Below, one piece after another: positions 11,388 to 30,537 of a DNA stretch of 32,669 bases. Every line of letters begins with the position of its first letter. Within the stretch, counting starts at the first letter, position 1. Both the position numbers and the translations under genes were made by a program. Under the pieces are notes generated by a model. The model was given only the letters and a program-made list of their open reading frames with translations, was not told the DNA's origin and ran no database searches. The stretch is from assembly GCA_020345645.1 (NCBI GenBank), contig CP070765.1:1108455-1141123 (forward strand). Reading direction: 5' to 3'. The DNA comes from Candidatus Bathyarchaeota archaeon (GTDB lineage Archaea; Thermoproteota; Bathyarchaeia; Bathyarchaeales; SOJC01).

Positions 11388-11779
11388 GTAGTAAACCTGA
11401 GAAATGGGGTATTGTTCATATCTACAGCTCATATAATAACACCATCATACACATCACCGACGTCTCTGGAGCAGAGACCATCTCCAGGGCGAGTGGTGGC
11501 ATGTTCGTGAAATCAGACCGGTTGGAATCCTCTCCATACGCAGCCATGCGTGCAGCCAGTGCAGCTGCCACAACTGCACGAGAGAAAGGAGTCACCGCCA
11601 TCCACATTCGAGTACGGGCTCCTGGAGGTTCCAGTGCTCGAACACCTGGTCCTGGTGCACAAGCTGCAATCCGAGGTCTGGCGAGAGCAGGATTTCGCAT
11701 AGGACGTATTGAAGAAGTGACCCCCGTTCCCCATGATGGAACCCGTCGAAAAGGCGGCCGCAGAGGTAGGAGAGTATAG
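11384..11779 (+). CDS. rps11: 30S ribosomal protein S11
   Basis: S11 lies on the platform of the small subunit near the E site. The 131-residue protein shows the family core: [19 protein letters not shown] at the N-terminus, [18 protein letters not shown] in the middle, and the conserved [20 protein letters not shown] loop, with the basic tail [11 protein letters not shown]. It starts at GTG in a 4-base overlap with S4 and is followed by 53 bases before RpoD, the largest gap in this part of the operon. Confidence 0.97.
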
Positions 11780-11832
11780 ACCTATCGATGGGAGAAGACG
11801 ACCGTCAGCTTTGAAAGAAATGGGTGGGTGGC

Positions 11833-12648
11833 ATGAACATCAAAACCCTAAAAGAGGATGATACTTCAATCCAGCTGCTTATCAGAGGAACGAACGCTGC
11901 ATTCATGAATACTCTGCGGCGAATCATCCTCACAGAAGTTCCTACAATGGCGATCGATGAAGTCGTGGTCATAGAGAACTCTTCAGTGCTTAGGGATGAA
12001 TTTCTTGCACATCGAATAGGTCTTATGCCGTTGAAGACGGATCTCGAAACCTACAACCTTCCAGAAGACTGTAAATGTGGAAGCGAATTCGGCTGCAATC
12101 TCTGCCGTGTGTCCTTAGTGCTCGAAGCCACATCGGGAGATCGCACGATCACGGTTTACTCAGGTGACTTCGTGTCAGATAACCCTGCGGTAGCTCCCGT
12201 AAGCACCAGAATTCCCATAACTAAACTGGCACCCGAGCAGAAGGTTAGGTTAGAAGCCTACGCTCGACTTGGAAAAGGCAAGGATCACGCTAGGTGGCAG
12301 CCTGTCTCAGTTTGCACTTATCGTCATTTGCCAATCATTAAAATCAACAAAAAAAGCTGTGATCTGTGCGAAAAATGCGTGAAGGTCTGTCCACGAAAGG
12401 TCCTAAAGAAGAGTGGGGATGAAATCTCCATCAATCATATTGAAGAATGCAGTCTCTGTGGGGACTGCGTAGACGCGTGCGAGAAGACGCCGAAAACTAT
12501 TGAGGCGACGTGGGACGATGAGTCTTTCACATTCAATCTTGAATCGACAGAGAGTCTCACTCCTCGAAGAATTCTGCAAGAAGCCATCACAATCCTCAAT
12601 GGAAAATTAAACACACTTCTCGAGCAACTGCAGGAGGTTCGAGAATGA
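11833..12648 (+). CDS. rpoD: RNA polymerase subunit D with two 4Fe-4S motifs
   Basis: RpoD is the archaeal counterpart of bacterial alpha N-terminal domain and eukaryotic Rpb3; with RpoL it nucleates RNA polymerase assembly. I start at ATG 11833 (271 residues), which gives the usual MNIKTLKEDD beginning; a GTG at 11824 adds three residues. The assembly motif is FMNTLRRIILTEVPTMAIDEV. A Cys cluster at 80, 82, 88 and 91 (CKCGSEFGCNLC) suggests a metal site. A ferredoxin-like insert holds two complete CxxCxxCxxxC motifs: Cys176/179/182/186 and Cys206/209/212/216. Archaeal RpoDs vary from none to two clusters; this one keeps all eight ligands. It overlaps L18e by 4 bases (ATGA). Confidence 0.96.
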   Translation: MNIKTLKEDDTSIQLLIRGTNAAFMNTLRRIILTEVPTMAIDEVVVIENSSVLRDEFLAHRIGLMPLKTDLETYNLPEDCKCGSEFGCNLCRVSLVLEATSGDRTITVYSGDFVSDNPAVAPVSTRIPITKLAPEQKVRLEAYARLGKGKDHARWQPVSVCTYRHLPIIKINKKSCDLCEKCVKVCPRKVLKKSGDEISINHIEECSLCGDCVDACEKTPKTIEATWDDESFTFNLESTESLTPRRILQEAITILNGKLNTLLEQLQEVRE

Positions 12649-13007
12649 GACATTCGAAGACCGATAACCCTCAGCTACGGGATTTGATCAGACAGTTACG
12701 GAAAACTGGGCGAATAAACAAAGCAGATGTGTGGGGTCGAATGGCAGAGTCCCTTTCGAAGCCTCGACAGAGACTCGCATCAATTAACATAAGTCGCTTA
12801 AACCGGCATACCTCTAAAGGCGACGTAGTCGCTGTTGCGGGTAAGGTTCTCGGAGCTGGCTCACTCAGCCACCCCGTCACAGTAGCAGCTTTTGCCTTTT
12901 CAGCAAAAGCGAGGGAAAAGATCATGATGGCTAAAGGAAAATGCCTGACTCTCCCTGAGATCCTTGAAAGAAACCCTTCTGGCTCCAAGGTAAAAATCCT
13001 CAGATAG
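12645..13007 (+). CDS. rpl18e: 50S ribosomal protein L18e
   Basis: L18e is a large-subunit protein found in archaea and eukaryotes and related in fold to L15. The 120-residue product shows the expected features: LRDLIRQLRKTGRINKADVW, then SKPRQRLASINISRLNRHT, and the glycine-rich VVAVAGKVLGAGSLSHPVTVAA strand. It is translationally coupled to RpoD through an ATGA overlap and is followed by L13 after a short gap. Confidence 0.96.
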   Translation: MRHSKTDNPQLRDLIRQLRKTGRINKADVWGRMAESLSKPRQRLASINISRLNRHTSKGDVVAVAGKVLGAGSLSHPVTVAAFAFSAKAREKIMMAKGKCLTLPEILERNPSGSKVKILR

Positions 13008-13020
13008 CAAGGTGAATGGA

Positions 13021-13446
13021 ATGGCAATAATTGATGCAACCGATCTTATCCTTGGGAGAATGGCAACCGTAATAGCGAAACGACTGCTTCAAGGAGAACA
13101 AATCATAATTTTAAACGCTGAAAAAGCAGTCGTCTCGGGCAAGAGACAGAGCAGAGTGAAAGAACTGAAGAAAAAACTTGAAATCGGACACCCGAGAAAA
13201 GGTCCTTATCTACCTCGTCAACCTGATCGATTCATCAAGCGATCGATCCGGGGAATGCTACCCCGTAAGAAACCAAAGGGTATCGAAGCCTACAGACGAC
13301 TGCGAGTCTTCATTGGAGTTCCCCCAGAACTTGAAGGCGAAACGAAGGAACTCCTACCGGAAGTCCATCTTGGGAAGCTGAAGAGCCCTTATATCACGGT
13401 AGGTGAGTTAGTCAAAGAGATCGGATGGTCTCAACCAGGAGACTGA
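13021..13446 (+). CDS. rpl13: 50S ribosomal protein L13
   Basis: L13 is an early-assembling large-subunit protein. The 141-residue archaeal-type product starts [22 protein letters not shown] and carries the nucleic-acid-binding core (VVSGKRQSR) and the conserved [14 protein letters not shown] motif. I chose ATG 13021 because AAGGTGA lies about 6 bases upstream; a GTG at 13012 would sit inside that ribosome site. S9 starts 2 bases after its stop region. Confidence 0.96.
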
Positions 13447-13447
13447 T

Positions 13448-13861
13448 ATGCCTAGTCCTAAAAAAGTAATCACGTTGAGCGGGAAAAGAAAAACGGCCAT
13501 CGCTCGAGCGACAGTAAGATCTGGGCGAGGAAGATTTCGAATAAATAATGTTCCTTTAGAGATATATGAACCAGTAGCTGCACGACAGAAGATAATGGAA
13601 GCTCTGCTCCAAGCCGACGATGACTTATTGAACAAGATCGACATCGACACAAATGTCTCTGGTGGAGGTTACATGGGTCAAGCAGAAGCCGCCCGAATGG
13701 CAATCGCCAGAGGAATGGTTAGATGGAGTAAAAGCAAGCACCTCCAATCCGTCTTCACAGAATACGACCGAACCATGTTAGCTGGCGATCCTCGAAGAAA
13801 AGAATCCAAGAAGTTCGGTGGTCCAGGAGCCCGAGCGAAACGGCAGAAAAGCTACAGGTAG
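13448..13861 (+). CDS. rps9: 30S ribosomal protein S9
   Basis: S9 contacts P-site tRNA through its C-terminal tail. The 137-residue protein has the family signature: [20 protein letters not shown] at the N-terminus, [20 protein letters not shown] in the middle, and the basic [17 protein letters not shown] tail ending in the tRNA-contacting SYR. It begins one base after L13 and is followed by RpoN. Confidence 0.97.
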
Positions 13862-13876
13862 AGGAACGAGACTCTA

Positions 13877-14104
13877 ATGATAATCCCTGTCAGATGTTTT
13901 TCGTGCGGTAAACTCGTTGGAGACAAATGGGAGGATTTTGCGAGAAGAGTAAAAGAAGGCGAAGACGCGGGCCACGTCTTGGATGATCTCGGAGTCTCAC
14001 GATACTGCTGCAGAAGAATGTTGCTGACGCATGTTGAAATCATAGACGAAATCATCCAGTTCTACGAGACAGGGAAGAAAAGACAGCCTCGCTCCGGGTC
14101 CTAG
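13877..14104 (+). CDS. rpoN: RNA polymerase subunit N
   Basis: RpoN (counterpart of eukaryotic Rpb10) is a small zinc-binding subunit of the RpoD/L/N/P assembly platform. The 75-residue sequence has the invariant [19 protein letters not shown]-terminus. Zinc ligands are CxxC at residues 7 and 10 and the adjacent pair CC in [10 protein letters not shown]. The usual neighbour rpoK does not follow; enolase does, 13 bases later. Confidence 0.97.
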
Positions 14105-14117
14105 GAGACCTCTCCAC

Positions 14118-15392
14118 TTGTCCACTGAGATCAAGCGGGTAATCGCACGTCGAATCTTCAACAGTCGTGGCGACGAAACCATTGAAGTAGATATTGAAAC
14201 CAGCTCAGGATTCGGACGGGCTGCGGCTCCAGCTGGAGCAAGCAAAGGCTTAGCTGAAGTTAAATATTTTCCAAAAGACAGTGTTCTTGACGCTGTTCGA
14301 CTCGTCGAGATGTTGATCGCCCACAGACTTGTTGGAATGGATGCTTCTCAGCAGGAGGAAATCGACACTCTTCTTCACGACATCGACGGAACAGACAACT
14401 TCAGCAAGATTGGGGGAAACACTGCCTACGCAATTTCACTTTGTGCAGCCAAAGCCACCGCTGACTCCCACCACGCCCTTCTATTCGAGTATTTAGGAGG
14501 ATACCTTGCCTATGAGCTTCCATATCCTCTTGGCAACGTACTTAGCGGAGGAAGACATGCACACGGCCGTGCACCCGATATTCAGGAGTTTCTCGTTTTA
14601 CCAATAGGTGCAGAGTCTTTCTGGGATGCCGCAAAAGCCAATGTCGCTTTCCACCAGAAAGTAGGGGAGATTCTCCGCCAAACACGCAAAACTTTCACCA
14701 GTGGAAGAAGCGACGAAGGTGCGTGGATCGCAGACATCAATAACGACGAGGCTTTTGAACTCATGGCTCAAGCCTGCCAGGAAGTCTCAAACCAGCTTGG
14801 GTTCACCTGCCGCGTGGGTATCGATCTTGCTGCATCAACACTCTGGGATTCAGAACACAAGTGCTATAGGTACTCTCATGAAGGAACCGAGCGAACTCCT
14901 GAAGAACAGGTTGAGTATGTTCTCGACTTGATCCAACGATACAGCTTGATCTACGTGGAAGACCCCTTTCACGAGGAAGACTACCAAAACTTTGCGTGGC
15001 TTACTAAAACAGCAGATGGCTGCCTAATCTGCGGTGACGACCTATTTGTGACGAACGTTGAACGACTAAGACATGGAATAGAAGAGTCAGCGGGGAACTC
15101 CGTGATAATCAAACCCAATCAGATTGGCACTCTCACCGACGCTTGGCAGACTGCCAAGACTGCTAAAGAAGCCCTCTATGCACCGATAGTCTCACATAGA
15201 TCTGGAGACACGGTGAATGCTGAGATCTCACACCTAGCAGTAGCCTTCCACTGCCCGATAATCAAAACCGGCGTAATCGAAGGTGCCAGAATCGCTAAGA
15301 TCGACGAGCTTATTAGGATAGAAGATACTCTTCGAAAGAGAGCCAGAATGGCTGAGATACCGTTGCATGCATTGACGCGGAGGAACAAATAG
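14118..15392 (+). CDS. eno: Enolase (phosphopyruvate hydratase)
   Basis: Enolase interconverts 2-phosphoglycerate and phosphoenolpyruvate in glycolysis/gluconeogenesis. The 424-residue product starts at TTG 14118 and is near family length. Conserved sites are visible: AAPAGASKG flap loop, QEFLVLPIGA, magnesium ligands in GIDLAAS, YVEDPFHEEDY and CGDDLFVTN, the catalytic-lysine signature IIKPNQIGTLTDA, SHRSGDT, and IIKTG near the C-terminus. Differences from typical enolases are SGGRHAHGRAPDIQ in place of the more usual NGGxHAxN segment, and GDT in place of GET after SHRS. Its position between RpoN and S2 is the standard archaeal placement, which supports a true enolase. Confidence 0.93.
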   Translation: MSTEIKRVIARRIFNSRGDETIEVDIETSSGFGRAAAPAGASKGLAEVKYFPKDSVLDAVRLVEMLIAHRLVGMDASQQEEIDTLLHDIDGTDNFSKIGGNTAYAISLCAAKATADSHHALLFEYLGGYLAYELPYPLGNVLSGGRHAHGRAPDIQEFLVLPIGAESFWDAAKANVAFHQKVGEILRQTRKTFTSGRSDEGAWIADINNDEAFELMAQACQEVSNQLGFTCRVGIDLAASTLWDSEHKCYRYSHEGTERTPEEQVEYVLDLIQRYSLIYVEDPFHEEDYQNFAWLTKTADGCLICGDDLFVTNVERLRHGIEESAGNSVIIKPNQIGTLTDAWQTAKTAKEALYAPIVSHRSGDTVNAEISHLAVAFHCPIIKTGVIEGARIAKIDELIRIEDTLRKRARMAEIPLHALTRRNK

Positions 15393-21975: not shown

Positions 21976-23307
21976 TTGGTTCTTCTGCGCTACGATAAAG
22001 GTACAATCCTGATATCAGGAGATGTACGGGTACCCAGCAGCACTTGGGATTCTCGAGTCGGAGCCTTCAGGACCATGGGTCTTCATTATCCTGAAGTACT
22101 CAGGTTCCTGCAGGTGAGTAAGTTTGATGTCAGAGATAATGTGTTTGACCTACTTCCCTGCCCTGAATTGCAAGGAAAATCAAAACTCCGTTCCTATCAG
22201 ACGGAAGCCTTGACTGCTTGGGTCAACGCTAAAGGTCGAGGCGTCGTCGTTCTCCCAACTGGGGCGGGGAAGACGTTCGTAGCTTTTGGAGCCATCTCCC
22301 ACGTAAACGCACCTACGATTATCGTTGTTCCCACGATTGACTTAATGCAGCAGTGGATTAAGAACCTGACTCAGGAGTTCAATGTGGAGGTTGGTGCAAT
22401 TGGTGGTGGCGAGAGCGATCTTCAAGCAATAACAGTGTCAACGTATGACTCTGCCTACTTGAAAGCAGAGGAGTTGGGAAACAGATTCATGCTGGTTGTC
22501 TTCGACGAGGTTCATCATCTCCCGGCTCCAAGCTACAGTCAGATTGCTGAGTTCTTCGTAGCCCCTTTCAGGCTAGGATTAACTGCAACCTTTGTGAGGG
22601 AGGATGAAGGACATACGCTTCTACCACGTTTACTCGGTAACGTGATTTATGAACTTGAACCTGATGATCTCGCTGGAACCCATCTCTCTCAATATACGCT
22701 TGAGAGAAAGTATGTAGAACTTACATCGGAAGAACAGCGGAAATATGCAGAGAACCACCGCGTCTTTACGGCGTATCTGAGAAAGAAACGGATCAAGCTT
22801 AGAAACTCCAGTGATTTTCGACGCTTCATAATCCGAACTGGTGCCGACCCTGAGGCCAGAAGAGCCCTACTTGCCAGAAACCGAGCCCTTGAAACTGCAC
22901 TGAACTCCTCATCCAAGATGACCGCTCTCCGAGACCTCTTAGCCAGTCAACCTGAGAAAAAAACATTGATCTTCACTCATCACAACAGGCTGGTTCACAG
23001 AATCAGCAGAGAGTTCCTTATTCCGGCAATCACACACCAAACTCCTAAAGAGGAACGCACTGAGATTCTGGACAGGTTCCGAGCAGGGTCCTACACTAGA
23101 ATTGCAACCTCAAGGATCTTGGACGAAGGCATCGATGTTCCAGACGCCTCCCTGGGAGTTATATTAAGTGGGACAGGAAGCTCACGGGAATTCATTCAGC
23201 GACTGGGGCGACTCCTAAGGAAGAAAGAAGGAAAAGAAGCGAAACTGGTCGAGATACTGTCCAAGGAGACTCAGGAACCACACATCAGCAAACGACGGAG
23301 AGGATAA
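21976..23307 (+). CDS. xpb: XPB-family DNA helicase
   Basis: XPB is a superfamily 2 ATPase that opens DNA; its eukaryotic form serves TFIIH and nucleotide excision repair, and in archaea it works with the Bax1 nuclease. The 443-residue product shows Walker A PTGAGKT (94-100), DEVHH (177-181), LTAT (202-205), the XPB-specific RED motif in FVREDEGH (208-210), and motif VI QRLGRLLRKK near 410. A short N-terminal region before the Q-like PELQGKSKLRSYQ fits the reduced damage-recognition domain of archaeal XPB. TTG start at 21976. Bax1 follows after 8 bases. Confidence 0.95.
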   Translation: MVLLRYDKGTILISGDVRVPSSTWDSRVGAFRTMGLHYPEVLRFLQVSKFDVRDNVFDLLPCPELQGKSKLRSYQTEALTAWVNAKGRGVVVLPTGAGKTFVAFGAISHVNAPTIIVVPTIDLMQQWIKNLTQEFNVEVGAIGGGESDLQAITVSTYDSAYLKAEELGNRFMLVVFDEVHHLPAPSYSQIAEFFVAPFRLGLTATFVREDEGHTLLPRLLGNVIYELEPDDLAGTHLSQYTLERKYVELTSEEQRKYAENHRVFTAYLRKKRIKLRNSSDFRRFIIRTGADPEARRALLARNRALETALNSSSKMTALRDLLASQPEKKTLIFTHHNRLVHRISREFLIPAITHQTPKEERTEILDRFRAGSYTRIATSRILDEGIDVPDASLGVILSGTGSSREFIQRLGRLLRKKEGKEAKLVEILSKETQEPHISKRRRG

Positions 23308-23315
23308 GCCAACAG

Positions 23316-24911
23316 ATGCTTCCGCTTGATTTACTTCGTGCTCGCTCAAGAAGGGGACAGATTCAACCCATTTACGCAGACCTTTCACAGCTAAACCTCG
23401 ACCTCTGCACTCGGATTATTGAAGCTTTTCAGGCAAACGTCGATGAAAAGAAAGGTAAACTACTGAGGGAGATATCGCGTTACGAGGACGCAGGCTTCGA
23501 CTATAGACTCGTCCGTGGCTTATCCACTATCCTGCAGAGAGAATGCGTGTTCAAGATCGATGCCGCAGTCAACCCGCGATTGGCAAGGCGCCTGATCTTT
23601 GAAGAAGCTGCCAGACGAGGTCCAGTGATCAACGATGCATCCCGCAGAAGCGTAATGAACTTCGTGGCAACACAACTCGGCGTTACTGCAAGTGAACTTG
23701 AAGAGTCTTTTCAGGCTGATCTAGATGATGAACTGCTTCTCAGAGAATTTTCACCATTAATCCCTGTTGAGTTGCTAAAGCGATACAACTTTGCGTTGAC
23801 ACAGACACTCCTCTTCAGATCAACCTTTATGGAGATCAGAGTCTCCGACTCTTGGAAAGACATTCTTCGAGCAGTGAAATTTCAAGGCTTAATATACTCA
23901 GCAGAGGTTGAGGACGGAATCTTCAAGATCACAGTCGATGGTCCACATTCAATCTTCAAACTCACTCAACGGTACGGTACACGGATGGCGAAGATCCTTC
24001 CATCCATCGTGCAGGCCCCACATTGGAATATCTTCGGGGGCATTATTAGAACTGGGCAATTCGGAAAGAGAATTATGCAACTCCGGTTGTCTAGTGAAGA
24101 AGTTGGAGAATTAATCAAACCCGCTGAGTCACGAATCCCACCGAAGAAGCTAAATGACCAGTTCGATAGCCGAGTGGAGTACGAGTTCTTCAAACGGTTT
24201 CAGACTCTGAACTCTGGTTGGACGATCGCCCGAGAACCCACTCCATTGATTGCCGGCAGGCACGTGTTCATTCCGGATTTCATTTTCGAAAAGAACGGAA
24301 TGCGCGTCTACATGGAGATCGCCGGATTCTGGACGGAGAAATACCTGGCGACGAAGCTTAAAAAGCTCCAGCAGCTCCCGAATGTCGACTTGATCATCGT
24401 CGCAGATGAGAAACATGCCTGCGAACGCCTGAAGCGCATTCGAGGAGAAGTGATCTTCTACAAGAGAAAAGTGCCCCTCAGACCTGTTTGGAGGCTTCTG
24501 AAGCAGAGGGAAGAAGAGCTACTCAATCAGCAGATGACCCGCCTGGATCCTTCTCACTTGCACTTTAAGGGCGACGTGATTCAGTTACAGGCAGTCGCTG
24601 ACCGCAGCAACGTGCCAATTGGAGTGCTTGTCGGGAAGATGAAGGTGAACAAGGTGGAGGGATACCGAATAGTGGGGAACCTTCTCGTCAGCGATGGCAA
24701 ACTTAAGCAGTTGGGTCAGAAGATCGCGTCACTCAAAAGCCCTCTCCTTTCAGAAGTCATCAACTTGCTGGAACAGGAAGGCGTCGATCGTCCCTACGAT
24801 GTCCTCTCTGCACTTGACTACGGAGTGAAGTGGAGCGGCTTGGATCTTGAGAAAAGCTCCATATTCAAACGGCAGCCAAACAAGAAGAACAGCGACAGCT
24901 CCGTTGCTTAA
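23316..24911 (+). CDS. bax1: Bax1-type nuclease (DUF790)
   Basis: Bax1 is the XPB-associated nuclease of archaea, which cuts near DNA bubbles made by XPB. This 531-residue protein carries the DUF790 N-terminal region, with DYRLVRGLSTILQRECVF near residue 65-80, and a restriction-endonuclease-like domain at about 287-355. There VEYEFFKRF, IPDFIF and MEIAGFWTEKYLATKLKKL supply the acidic and lysine residues of a PD-(D/E)xK-type site. The C-terminal 100 residues are a separate helical region. The gene starts at ATG 8 bases after XPB, the usual arrangement for this pair. Confidence 0.92.
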   Translation: MLPLDLLRARSRRGQIQPIYADLSQLNLDLCTRIIEAFQANVDEKKGKLLREISRYEDAGFDYRLVRGLSTILQRECVFKIDAAVNPRLARRLIFEEAARRGPVINDASRRSVMNFVATQLGVTASELEESFQADLDDELLLREFSPLIPVELLKRYNFALTQTLLFRSTFMEIRVSDSWKDILRAVKFQGLIYSAEVEDGIFKITVDGPHSIFKLTQRYGTRMAKILPSIVQAPHWNIFGGIIRTGQFGKRIMQLRLSSEEVGELIKPAESRIPPKKLNDQFDSRVEYEFFKRFQTLNSGWTIAREPTPLIAGRHVFIPDFIFEKNGMRVYMEIAGFWTEKYLATKLKKLQQLPNVDLIIVADEKHACERLKRIRGEVIFYKRKVPLRPVWRLLKQREEELLNQQMTRLDPSHLHFKGDVIQLQAVADRSNVPIGVLVGKMKVNKVEGYRIVGNLLVSDGKLKQLGQKIASLKSPLLSEVINLLEQEGVDRPYDVLSALDYGVKWSGLDLEKSSIFKRQPNKKNSDSSVA

Positions 24912-26242: not shown

Positions 26243-28084
26243 TCAGTTGCTCAATGAATAGACTGCTATGTTTCCTCTTTCCGTTACGAACTTGACTGTG
26301 CAGTTCTCATCGTGGCTGATGTCGATTCGGATGTATGATTCGGTGTCGCCAGCGTTGATGAAGATGTTAACATCGAATCTTCTGTGGTGCGTCGCGTTGT
26401 TGACCCACAGTGAAACAAAGTGAGAGGTCGCAGATCCCTTGTTCTTCAACGTGAAGGCTGAACCATCAAGTGCTGCTCTCACAGCAAGGAAGTCAACATC
26501 CAGTGTCGTCTGATTTCCGTCCTCTCCTTCGTCAACAATTTTCACCTTGACGGTGCCATTACTATGGATGTAGCTGTTCCAGTCATCTGCTAGATTTACT
26601 GTGTAGGTGTTCCAGCCGATGGATGAACTGTGACCTTCAGTAAAGTTGAAGCCTGCGTCTGAGTATTCCAAGGCTGTCCAATTGAGGGTCTTCAAGAACC
26701 ATTTTTCGTTGACATCACTTACTCGGTACCTCATCTGGATTTCAATCGTTTGAATATAGGTTAGAGGGGCTGCGTAGATGTCTATGATGAATGGACCAGT
26801 GATGTCCAATCTGTTGTCGTTCTGACTCTCTTCAGTGCCAAGGGTAACTGTTGGTTCCGGTTCAACATACTTTCTGATTTTGAAGTCATCCATCCACCCA
26901 GTGGACTGACTGACCAGGAACGAAACTCGACCAGCTTCCGTTATTTGCGTTGATGTTCCATTTACTTTGGAAACTCCGTTGACCCAAAGTCTGAGATCAT
27001 CGCTATACACAGCAACACTGATCGTAAACGGTTGATTCCACGTATGATATTCACTCGGGATCTTGCAGGATATGTATCCAGTCCGCGTATTTCTCGCAAT
27101 ACATGGAGATGAGTATGAATCTCCAGATATGTGACCAGCATAGAAATTAAATGAGTTCTGCCATCTGAATAAGATGCCATTAGTCGAATTGATTGAATAG
27201 CTACCGGTTATGTTCATCTTCATTTCAGCGTATACATCAGTCTCGCTAATCGTGACTGGCATCCAGTCTCCCACATAATTATCACCTGTGTCGAAGTAAA
27301 CAGCTTCATGTGAAGGATCCCAGTAAGGCTCGTAGACGTTAGACCCAAAACCAAACCAACTGGCTGCATGCCTATCGACATCGTAATTGTCTGTTGTGTT
27401 CGTTGAAAAATCGTCAAACCATAGATAGACGTTGCTCCTGTTCCCTGGAGGATTTTGTGCTAAAGGATTACTGTAGTACAGGTAGTAGTTTGAGTCCGTT
27501 TCCGTAGGATCGATTCCTGCATGAGTTTTGAACCAGACTTGTGTCGTGGTTGTGTTCATTTCAATGATGTCCCGATCGATTTCGACTGAAGATGTGCCAT
27601 TCCAGTATACTATTCTCAGGTCCTTTCCATCTGAAAGAATCTTACCTGATGAAACAAGGCTAGCTGTGTCCATGGTTAGGAGAGTAGAGTAACCAGCGTC
27701 AAGTCTAGAAGTTAAACTGTTGGTGATATTCATCTGTTGGCGGTTTCCGTAGCTTGAATTCCACCAGCTCAACCCCCCCGTGTACGCACCTGCCTCTGTG
27801 AAGCGCTCATATTCCGCGTCAATCGCTTGGGTTCCCGTGTAGTCACCGCTGGTTCGACCGCCTGTATTCACCACGTATTCGGATTGGGTCATGAACCATG
27901 GAGAACCAGTGACGCGTGAAACGTCAGTTATTTCAATCTCTTCTCTGATCTTCTCCCAGTCGAGTTGGTTCATGTCGTAATTCCAGAGGATAACATTGGC
28001 GAAGACAATGGCTAAAATGACCAGACTCAGCACGGTCACTATCACATTGCTGACTGCTTTCTTTCCTCGAGGAATGTTCCCCAT
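26243..28084 (-). CDS. Surface protein with pilin-type anchor and DUF2341 domain
   Basis: This 613-residue protein starts with a class III-type leader: RGKKA then VSNVIVTVLSLVILAIVFA, a hydrophobic helix at residues about 11-33, so it is probably cleaved by a prepilin peptidase or stays as a one-pass anchor. The extracytoplasmic body has a DUF2341 domain at about 105-220 (WWNSSYGNRQQMNITN, YYLYYSNPLAQNPPGNRSN), then a LamG/concanavalin-like beta domain to about residue 410 (WFDDFSTN, WMDDFKIRKYV), and further beta-rich sequence to the end. Many Asn-X-Ser/Thr sequons suggest glycosylation. Likely a carbohydrate-binding adhesin or surface-layer protein. It converges on kynureninase with a 29-base gap. 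Confidence 0.82.
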   Translation of the reverse strand: MGNIPRGKKAVSNVIVTVLSLVILAIVFANVILWNYDMNQLDWEKIREEIEITDVSRVTGSPWFMTQSEYVVNTGGRTSGDYTGTQAIDAEYERFTEAGAYTGGLSWWNSSYGNRQQMNITNSLTSRLDAGYSTLLTMDTASLVSSGKILSDGKDLRIVYWNGTSSVEIDRDIIEMNTTTTQVWFKTHAGIDPTETDSNYYLYYSNPLAQNPPGNRSNVYLWFDDFSTNTTDNYDVDRHAASWFGFGSNVYEPYWDPSHEAVYFDTGDNYVGDWMPVTISETDVYAEMKMNITGSYSINSTNGILFRWQNSFNFYAGHISGDSYSSPCIARNTRTGYISCKIPSEYHTWNQPFTISVAVYSDDLRLWVNGVSKVNGTSTQITEAGRVSFLVSQSTGWMDDFKIRKYVEPEPTVTLGTEESQNDNRLDITGPFIIDIYAAPLTYIQTIEIQMRYRVSDVNEKWFLKTLNWTALEYSDAGFNFTEGHSSSIGWNTYTVNLADDWNSYIHSNGTVKVKIVDEGEDGNQTTLDVDFLAVRAALDGSAFTLKNKGSATSHFVSLWVNNATHHRRFDVNIFINAGDTESYIRIDISHDENCTVKFVTERGNIAVYSLSN

Positions 28085-29493: not shown

Positions 29494-29640
29494 TACTTCA
29501 AGCCCCTTACATACCAGTCGATGTGAAGAGATAAATTATTCCATCAGACCCACCACGCGAAGAAGTAGAAAAATGTACCATATGGTTTTATCAAGGGGTT
29601 TGCCTAATTTCCTCTAAAAATAGCAAGAGGAGAAGGTGCA

Positions 29641-30537
29641 TTGAAATTCATCCAATTGAAAAAACTGGCAGTACTTGCTTTGTCGGTTCTGTTATCGCTG
29701 AATGTTTTCTTGGCGATCACGTCGGGTGTTAATGCTGCTCCGGTTAAAGATCCAACAGTCTACATCAACGGTGATGGATCTGTTGAATTGACTTGGAACT
29801 CTGGAAAGTCGACGACGTTCAGAAACAATACAAATGTAAATTTGGGTGGTTTGAAAAGTATAGCAATTACTCCTGACCATGGCTGGCACATCGAAATTGT
29901 CCTATTTGATGGCATTTCTCAGGAAATCTTGGATGAAGATGGATACAGCCTTATCGACGTCCAAGTTAAACGTGTGATCTCTGTCGCTTTCCTTGAGAAC
30001 GGCGGAATTGACGATGTGGAATCCGGAACCTATATTGCAGCATATCCAGATCCTGACGTAGGACTCGTATTCCACAACGTTTTCGCAGATGGATTTGCGT
30101 ACGCCTACTTGATTGGGCTGCAACAGTACGATCAAATTGGTGAGTCTTGGGACATCTATACAAATGCAACTTTCGTTCAGAACGTGACAGTCTACCTTGT
30201 GCTCTCAATTAATGATCTACCAGACGGTGTTTTCCCAGGTGACTTGGCATTATGGAGAACTGAAGTTGTGCTCGGTGATGTTAACCTTGATGGAGTAGTC
30301 GATGGGACTGATCAGTCCATAGTCGCTAATGCTAACCCCGATGATTACGATCCAACCCTCGACTTAGACAATAATGGCGTTATTAACAGTGATGATGTGA
30401 ACATTGTAGCCCATAACCACGGCTTAGAATCCATTTGGGAACAGCTCGAATCATGGACTCATATGGAAGGCAACTTCGTCTATGTTTACGGCATAACTGA
30501 CCACTTTTCAGTATTCGGCGTTACTCGAAGAAATTAA
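29641..30537 (+). CDS. Secreted protein with C-terminal dockerin-like module
   Basis: This 298-residue product starts at TTG 29641 with AGGAGAAGG about 5 bases upstream. A Sec signal peptide is clear: KLAVLALSVLLSLNVFLA, with likely cleavage after NAA (about residue 33). The body is beta-rich and not recognised. Near the C-terminus are two calcium-binding loops of dockerin I type: DVNLDGVVDGTD (213-224) and DLDNNGVINSDD (241-252). A helix and about 30 residues follow. Dockerins bind cohesins on scaffold or surface proteins; no cohesin is visible here, so the module may bind elsewhere in the genome or simply bind calcium. A T-rich stretch follows the gene. Confidence 0.82.
   Translation: MKFIQLKKLAVLALSVLLSLNVFLAITSGVNAAPVKDPTVYINGDGSVELTWNSGKSTTFRNNTNVNLGGLKSIAITPDHGWHIEIVLFDGISQEILDEDGYSLIDVQVKRVISVAFLENGGIDDVESGTYIAAYPDPDVGLVFHNVFADGFAYAYLIGLQQYDQIGESWDIYTNATFVQNVTVYLVLSINDLPDGVFPGDLALWRTEVVLGDVNLDGVVDGTDQSIVANANPDDYDPTLDLDNNGVINSDDVNIVAHNHGLESIWEQLESWTHMEGNFVYVYGITDHFSVFGVTRRN

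Follow-up and report, generated by a model that had tools for sequence, protein, structure and literature searches.

The dockerin is the plug half of the plug-and-socket pair of the cellulosome and is usually described as a terminal or linker-joined module. Bathyarchaeia are thought to degrade buried protein. What a dockerin might do in a secreted bathyarchaeal protein is the question raised by a gene at positions 29641..30537 (+) of the window analysed here, a stretch of 32,669 nucleotides from a Candidatus Bathyarchaeota archaeon (contig CP070765.1). Passages of two papers report many dockerins and cohesins in ANME archaea (PMC9012536, PMC5244752), and a passage of a third mentions C25 peptidases in Bathyarchaeota (PMC6752024). 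The passages of open-licence literature retrieved for dockerin with Bathyarchaeota or Bathyarchaeia held no description of a bathyarchaeal dockerin. The single passage met on nested or internal dockerins concerned dockerin repeats, and the combination of dockerin, clostripain and archaea gave nothing in the open-licence literature.

Results

Judged by its relatives, the open reading frame at 29641..30537 is a real gene. It encodes 298 amino acids from a TTG start, and a Shine-Dalgarno-like GAGGAG can be read directly in the sequence 8 bases upstream (29627..29632, +). Matches were found in 20 of 101 genomes, its own included: three are full-length relatives with 59-60% identity, while those in the other 16 genomes are weaker and mostly cover the dockerin part. 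A match of 59-60% identity on CP070683.1 (Ca. Bathyarchaeota archaeon bin67), probably identical with one of the three full-length relatives, bears out the archaeal origin proposed when the sequence was read on its own. The TTG start and the failure of the single sequence to match any Pfam or NCBIfam model at E 0.1 might suggest that the frame or its calcium loops are a product of chance or of assembly. This explanation is refuted by the existence of relatives, full-length in three separate genomes and joined by the match in the named genome, and by the conservation of the loops; we give it practically no weight.

The protein begins with a signal peptide (approximately residues 1-33; 29641..29739, +), recognised by the hydrophobic stretch LAVLALSVLLSLNVFLAIT with a 19-residue Kyte-Doolittle mean of 2.43 and a putative cleavage site, and the last 60 residues, checked for hydropathy, contain no hydrophobic helix. 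Both observations agree with the earlier claim that the protein is secreted. The following small beta-domain (approximately residues 36-118; 29746..29994, +) weakly resembles a divergent InlB B-repeat. It matches L029 (E 3.1e-5) and L038 (E 6.0e-4), both of which look like such repeats by eye, and a weak match to Flg_new_2 (PF18998; E 0.068) appeared in one of five aligned members. AlphaFold models, built from an alignment with one relative, reached mean pLDDT values of 31.0 for the full length and 29.3 for residues 120-298; they give no structural support and were not used.

The dockerin-like module of the sequence-only reading proved to be a dockerin in profile comparisons. It occupies residues 209-262 (30265..30426, +) and contains both of the 12-residue calcium loops noticed earlier, DVNLDGVVDGTD at residues 213-224 (30277..30312, +) and DLDNNGVINSDD at residues 241-252 (30361..30396, +), each assigned by its ligand pattern. 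In a phmmer search of solved structures the best matches of the window protein were dockerins (2y3n_B, E 0.0019), and a profile of six relatives matched 2y3n_B at E 1.6e-8, followed by many other dockerin chains; 2y3n_B is a GH48 dockerin, presumably from Bacteroides cellulosolvens. Comparison of ten nested dockerins with eleven other dockerins of the same genome, a set that leaves out the nested dockerin of genome G005 and two own-genome dockerins (the one at 206900 and that of L059), gave E 9e-12, a score reached by none of 100 column shuffles. Against the Pfam dockerin model PF00404 the window protein scored 12.7 bits, below the cut-off of 22.9. This low score is not peculiar to it, since 11 other own-genome dockerin proteins, scanned in that way, all stayed below the cut-off; the nested relatives in G046, G007, G082 and G146 and the second copy in G004 passed it.

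The calcium-ligand pattern (loop positions 1, 3, 5 and 12) is kept in both loops of nine of the eleven nested proteins, the window protein included, so the ligands are for the most part not lost in homologues. The exceptions are G146, where loop 1 alone fits, and G005, whose loops are longer and both depart from the pattern. With type I dockerins (PF00404, e.g. 2y3n_B) the module shares two 12-residue loops, the ligands D1/N-D3/D-N5/D12 and a similar spacing. It differs in that the single sequence stays under the Pfam cut-off, in its GT/SD recognition positions, and in interrupting another domain rather than forming a terminal module. On this evidence the two loops form a genuine dockerin, and its ligands strongly imply that it would bind calcium.

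The loops had been placed behind a beta-rich body, and they do follow one, but the dockerin interrupts that body and 36 residues come after it. The first part of this host beta-domain covers residues 120-208 (29998..30264, +) and ends in LALWRTE; its strands resume behind the dockerin, from W266 to HFSVFGV, within a second part at residues 263-294 (ESIWEQLES to HFSVFGV; 30427..30522, +). The sequence that follows the dockerin reads WEQLES...VYVYGITDHFSVFGVTRRN. A profile of 13 unbroken domains (A5) aligned with the nested proteins at E 1.6e-10, spanning the dockerin, and once the dockerin was removed at E 5.5e-15, a score reached by none of 50 shuffles. In hhalign comparisons A5 matched the left part alone at E 2.6e-7 and the right part alone at E 4.1e-9, and it did not match the dockerin part alone. 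Since each of these E-values stems from one pairwise run, more weight should go to the shuffles. The profile alignments make it secure that the dockerin interrupts the C-terminal beta-domain at a place that is occupied in relatives by a short turn joining two strands; from the strand pattern, the insertion site looks like a hairpin turn.

The uninterrupted form of the host domain, for which no Pfam name was found (e.g. L142-L148), has the same strand pattern, W..W turn and final H-x-S-x-F/W-like motif, but a short turn stands in place of the dockerin and a membrane anchor comes after the domain. Two beta-helix proteins illustrate the alternative arrangements, as both carry this host domain and a dockerin. 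In L129 (G079) the domain is unbroken (LCLLHWDESLQEWTNITTAVDIENNIICGETTHLSTFAF) and the dockerin lies behind it, whereas in L130 (G005) a different dockerin is nested at the same turn. L130 (G005:C1:369500-374500) is a NosD-like beta-helix protein.

A search for the unbroken domain in 162 genomes returned 26 rows, corresponding to 25 proteins in 21 genomes. Only two of these are interrupted by a dockerin (G005 and G004), and neither has a hydrophobic tail helix; such a helix is present in 18 of the remaining 23. Of the five that lack it, two have a dockerin behind the domain, two end in tails of another kind, and the last, from the window's own genome, extends into masked bases. The remaining nested proteins, by reading, have their C terminus at most a few residues from this same final motif. 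The membrane anchor is thus shown to be usual in relatives with the host domain and absent from the window protein. Run against the window's own genome, with no positive control, the A5 profile returned no unbroken domain at E 0.01. A single-sequence match at G000:C1:1087957-1088106 was considered as an own-genome unbroken domain and set aside as not classable, for it runs into masked bases. N-masked stretches also lie inside some genes of this genome (L052, L053, L064 and L149).

At E 1e-12 the nested profile retrieved ten proteins in nine of the 256 genomes of the class, all of them members of the taxonomic order to which the window's genome belongs. G005 holds an eleventh (E 1.2e-11), and G126 is counted as a probable case because the first part of the domain is unseen at a contig end. 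In a tree of 17 host domains, built with eight of the 23 unbroken domains and leaving out G126 and G157 because contig ends cut them, eight nested proteins stood apart from the unbroken ones and G005 fell on the unbroken side. The split placing G005 with the unbroken domains had 93% ultrafast bootstrap support in a short alignment. The simplest reading of this tree, short as the alignment is, suggests that dockerins entered the same turn of the host domain at least twice.

The gene neighbourhood gave no evidence of an operon, as the flanking CoaBC and TPR genes are kept in G007 only when compared with G004, G007 and G010, and no cohesin hit lay near the nested-dockerin gene in the four genomes compared. 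Another dockerin gene (G004:C1:1116993-1117148, -) lies beside the nested-dockerin gene of G004. Elsewhere in the window, the protein encoded at 26243-28084 (-) combines a DUF2341 domain with an N terminus that is hydrophobic and pilin-like by eye, and is possibly a surface filament or adhesin. At 21976-24911 an XPB-like helicase gene adjoins a Bax1-like nuclease gene, a known archaeal repair pair.

Cohesins and other dockerins, for which the sequence-only reading had advised a search, are both present in the genome. The dockerin search gave 14 hits, eight over the cut-off: the window protein, 12 others convincing by their loops, and one at 992915 that was rejected because a single loop is followed by a stop in a sequence unlike a dockerin protein. 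A further dockerin seen by eye in L059 brings the others to 13. The cohesin search gave seven hits, three over the cut-off; over two scans, four cohesins passed the Pfam cut-off at least once and two of them, at 46707 and 133590, both times. The cohesin of a C25 protein scored 25.7 bits in the genome search and 21.7 bits when rescored as a whole protein (cut-off 24.1), while the one at 1446946 rose from 20.9 to 26.3 bits. The genes of the four lie at G000:C1:46167-47195, 11427-14603, 133473-134051 and 1446199-1448151. A hit at 668482 was discarded, as it lies in a protein reading as TPR-like by eye. The cohesin protein L048 was considered as a partner by its phyletic pattern and rejected: none of the 12 other genomes of the family holds a full-length relative of it, and it does not discriminate because most of its matches cover its second domain only.

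Five of the dockerin proteins in this genome are peptidases, each with a C-terminal dockerin of the I-F type: three of family C11 (G000:C1:4901-6988, 1434356-1436437 and 1509381-1511597), one of family C25 that carries a cohesin hit as well (11427-14603), and one M14 carboxypeptidase (899397-902408). No glycoside hydrolase family was found at E 0.01 in the 11 of 13 other dockerin proteins that were scanned; L050 has a sub-threshold Pectinesterase match (E 0.0068). It is possible that the five dockerin-bearing peptidases are a peptidase counterpart of the cellulosome. The system differs from a cellulosome in that its dockerin enzymes are peptidases of C11, C25 and M14 and in having no multi-cohesin scaffoldin detectable with Pfam, every frame in the genome having at most a single Pfam cohesin hit at E 1. 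By eye, L057 and L059 each seem to contain two cohesin-like stretches. Among relatives, single open frames in G010 (C1:1153202-1154338), G012 (C46:17411-18565) and G009 (C8:46130-47257) carry three cohesin hits each, one of those in G010 being under the cut-off, and are scaffoldin-like and small. In the window's genome a cohesin gene (G000:C1:133473-134051) adjoins a dockerin gene (134627-136030), and the two may be a cognate pair because G001, G007 and G012 likewise have neighbouring cohesin and dockerin hits at a distance of about 1 kb.

Of 61 genomes, counting the window's own, 34 gave a cohesin and 35 a dockerin at E 0.001. A hand tally gave 30 genomes with both, four with cohesin only, five with dockerin only and 22 with neither, a co-occurrence with a Fisher p of 4e-8, uncorrected for relatedness.

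Discussion

What the nested dockerin binds is best discussed from its recognition positions and from the genomes in which it occurs. Positions 10 and 11 of the loops are putative recognition sites, with S-I/L or S-T/S in two bacteria according to a passage of one paper (PMC3413522). In the window dockerin they are GT in loop 1 and SD in loop 2, so that the two repeats are not alike, whereas the other 13 dockerins of the genome have I/V-F/Y in both repeats. GT/SD does not exclude membership of the family because dockerin types vary. Position 10 of loop 1 is glycine in all ten nested proteins that fit the pattern there, and position 10 or 11 of loop 2 is acidic in all nine that fit it in that loop.

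We prefer, tentatively, the reading that the module docks to a surface cohesin in a calcium-dependent manner and so replaces the lost membrane anchor. The protein would be a secreted, unanchored two-domain beta-protein. Calcium would fold the nested dockerin, which would project from its hairpin and plug into a surface cohesin; a non-covalent anchor would thereby take the place of the membrane helix. Docking and anchor replacement, as we infer them, are favoured by the 13 other dockerins and the four cohesins (in at least one scan) of the genome, by the co-occurrence of the two modules across the 61 genomes and by the lack of an anchor in the nested forms. Against docking stand the GT/SD positions, unlike I/V-F/Y, the lack of a cohesin hit near the gene in the four genomes compared and AlphaFold pLDDT values of about 30.

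The distribution of cohesins among nested-bearing genomes points in two directions. Cohesins over the cut-off occur in six of the ten genomes with a nested dockerin, G157 has a weak one, and none was detected in G046 (92% complete), G082 (91%) or G126 (71%). The only cohesin hit of G046 lies in a protein reading as a heavy-metal ATPase and was dismissed. At E 0.1 the nested protein carries the only convincing dockerin of each of these three genomes, G126 being only 71% complete. With neither a cohesin nor another convincing dockerin detected, the module may not dock in that lineage, which speaks against docking and leads to its main rival: a dockerin-derived EF-hand pair that has lost docking, has no cohesin partner and serves as a calcium-dependent structural clamp of the beta-domain. 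The invariant glycine of loop 1 and the acidic residue of loop 2 would also suit a clamp. On the other hand, the host domain does not need one, because many relatives have it without any insert, and within the window's own family each of the five genomes that carry a nested dockerin has at least three cohesin hits. We regard the clamp as a serious possibility, somewhat less likely than docking.

The same three genomes, together with the unusual recognition residues, would also fit a dockerin whose target is not a cohesin, or is a receptor that has diverged beyond what the Pfam cohesin model recognises. This seems improbable to us: the surroundings of the gene offer no candidate partner, and the few literature passages retrieved describe no cohesin-independent dockerin target.

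Returning to cohesin docking, a close parallel is the set of cohesin-dockerin proteins of ANME archaea, which likewise belong to uncultured archaea, are rich in both modules and have no link to cellulose (passages of PMC9012536). They differ in that ABC-transporter binding proteins, S-layer proteins and multi-cohesin proteins are described there, and the section describing them mentions neither a nested dockerin nor Bathyarchaeota.

Taken to its full extent, the docking reading would have a dockerin of Bathyarchaeia, carried on a hairpin, act as a plug in place of a membrane anchor. It would have entered one and the same turn of a widespread surface domain on two or more occasions, and would offer cohesin docking a rigid mount, orthogonal to the I-F dockerins that bear the secreted peptidases of this archaeon. 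We put this forward as a bold proposal that may well prove wrong in some part. A dockerin that interrupts a beta-hairpin would be held rigidly, which bears on the evolution of docking geometry, and a hairpin-mounted dockerin could help to build protein assemblies. For Bathyarchaeia, the findings point to a cohesin-dockerin set that carries secreted peptidases rather than cellulases.
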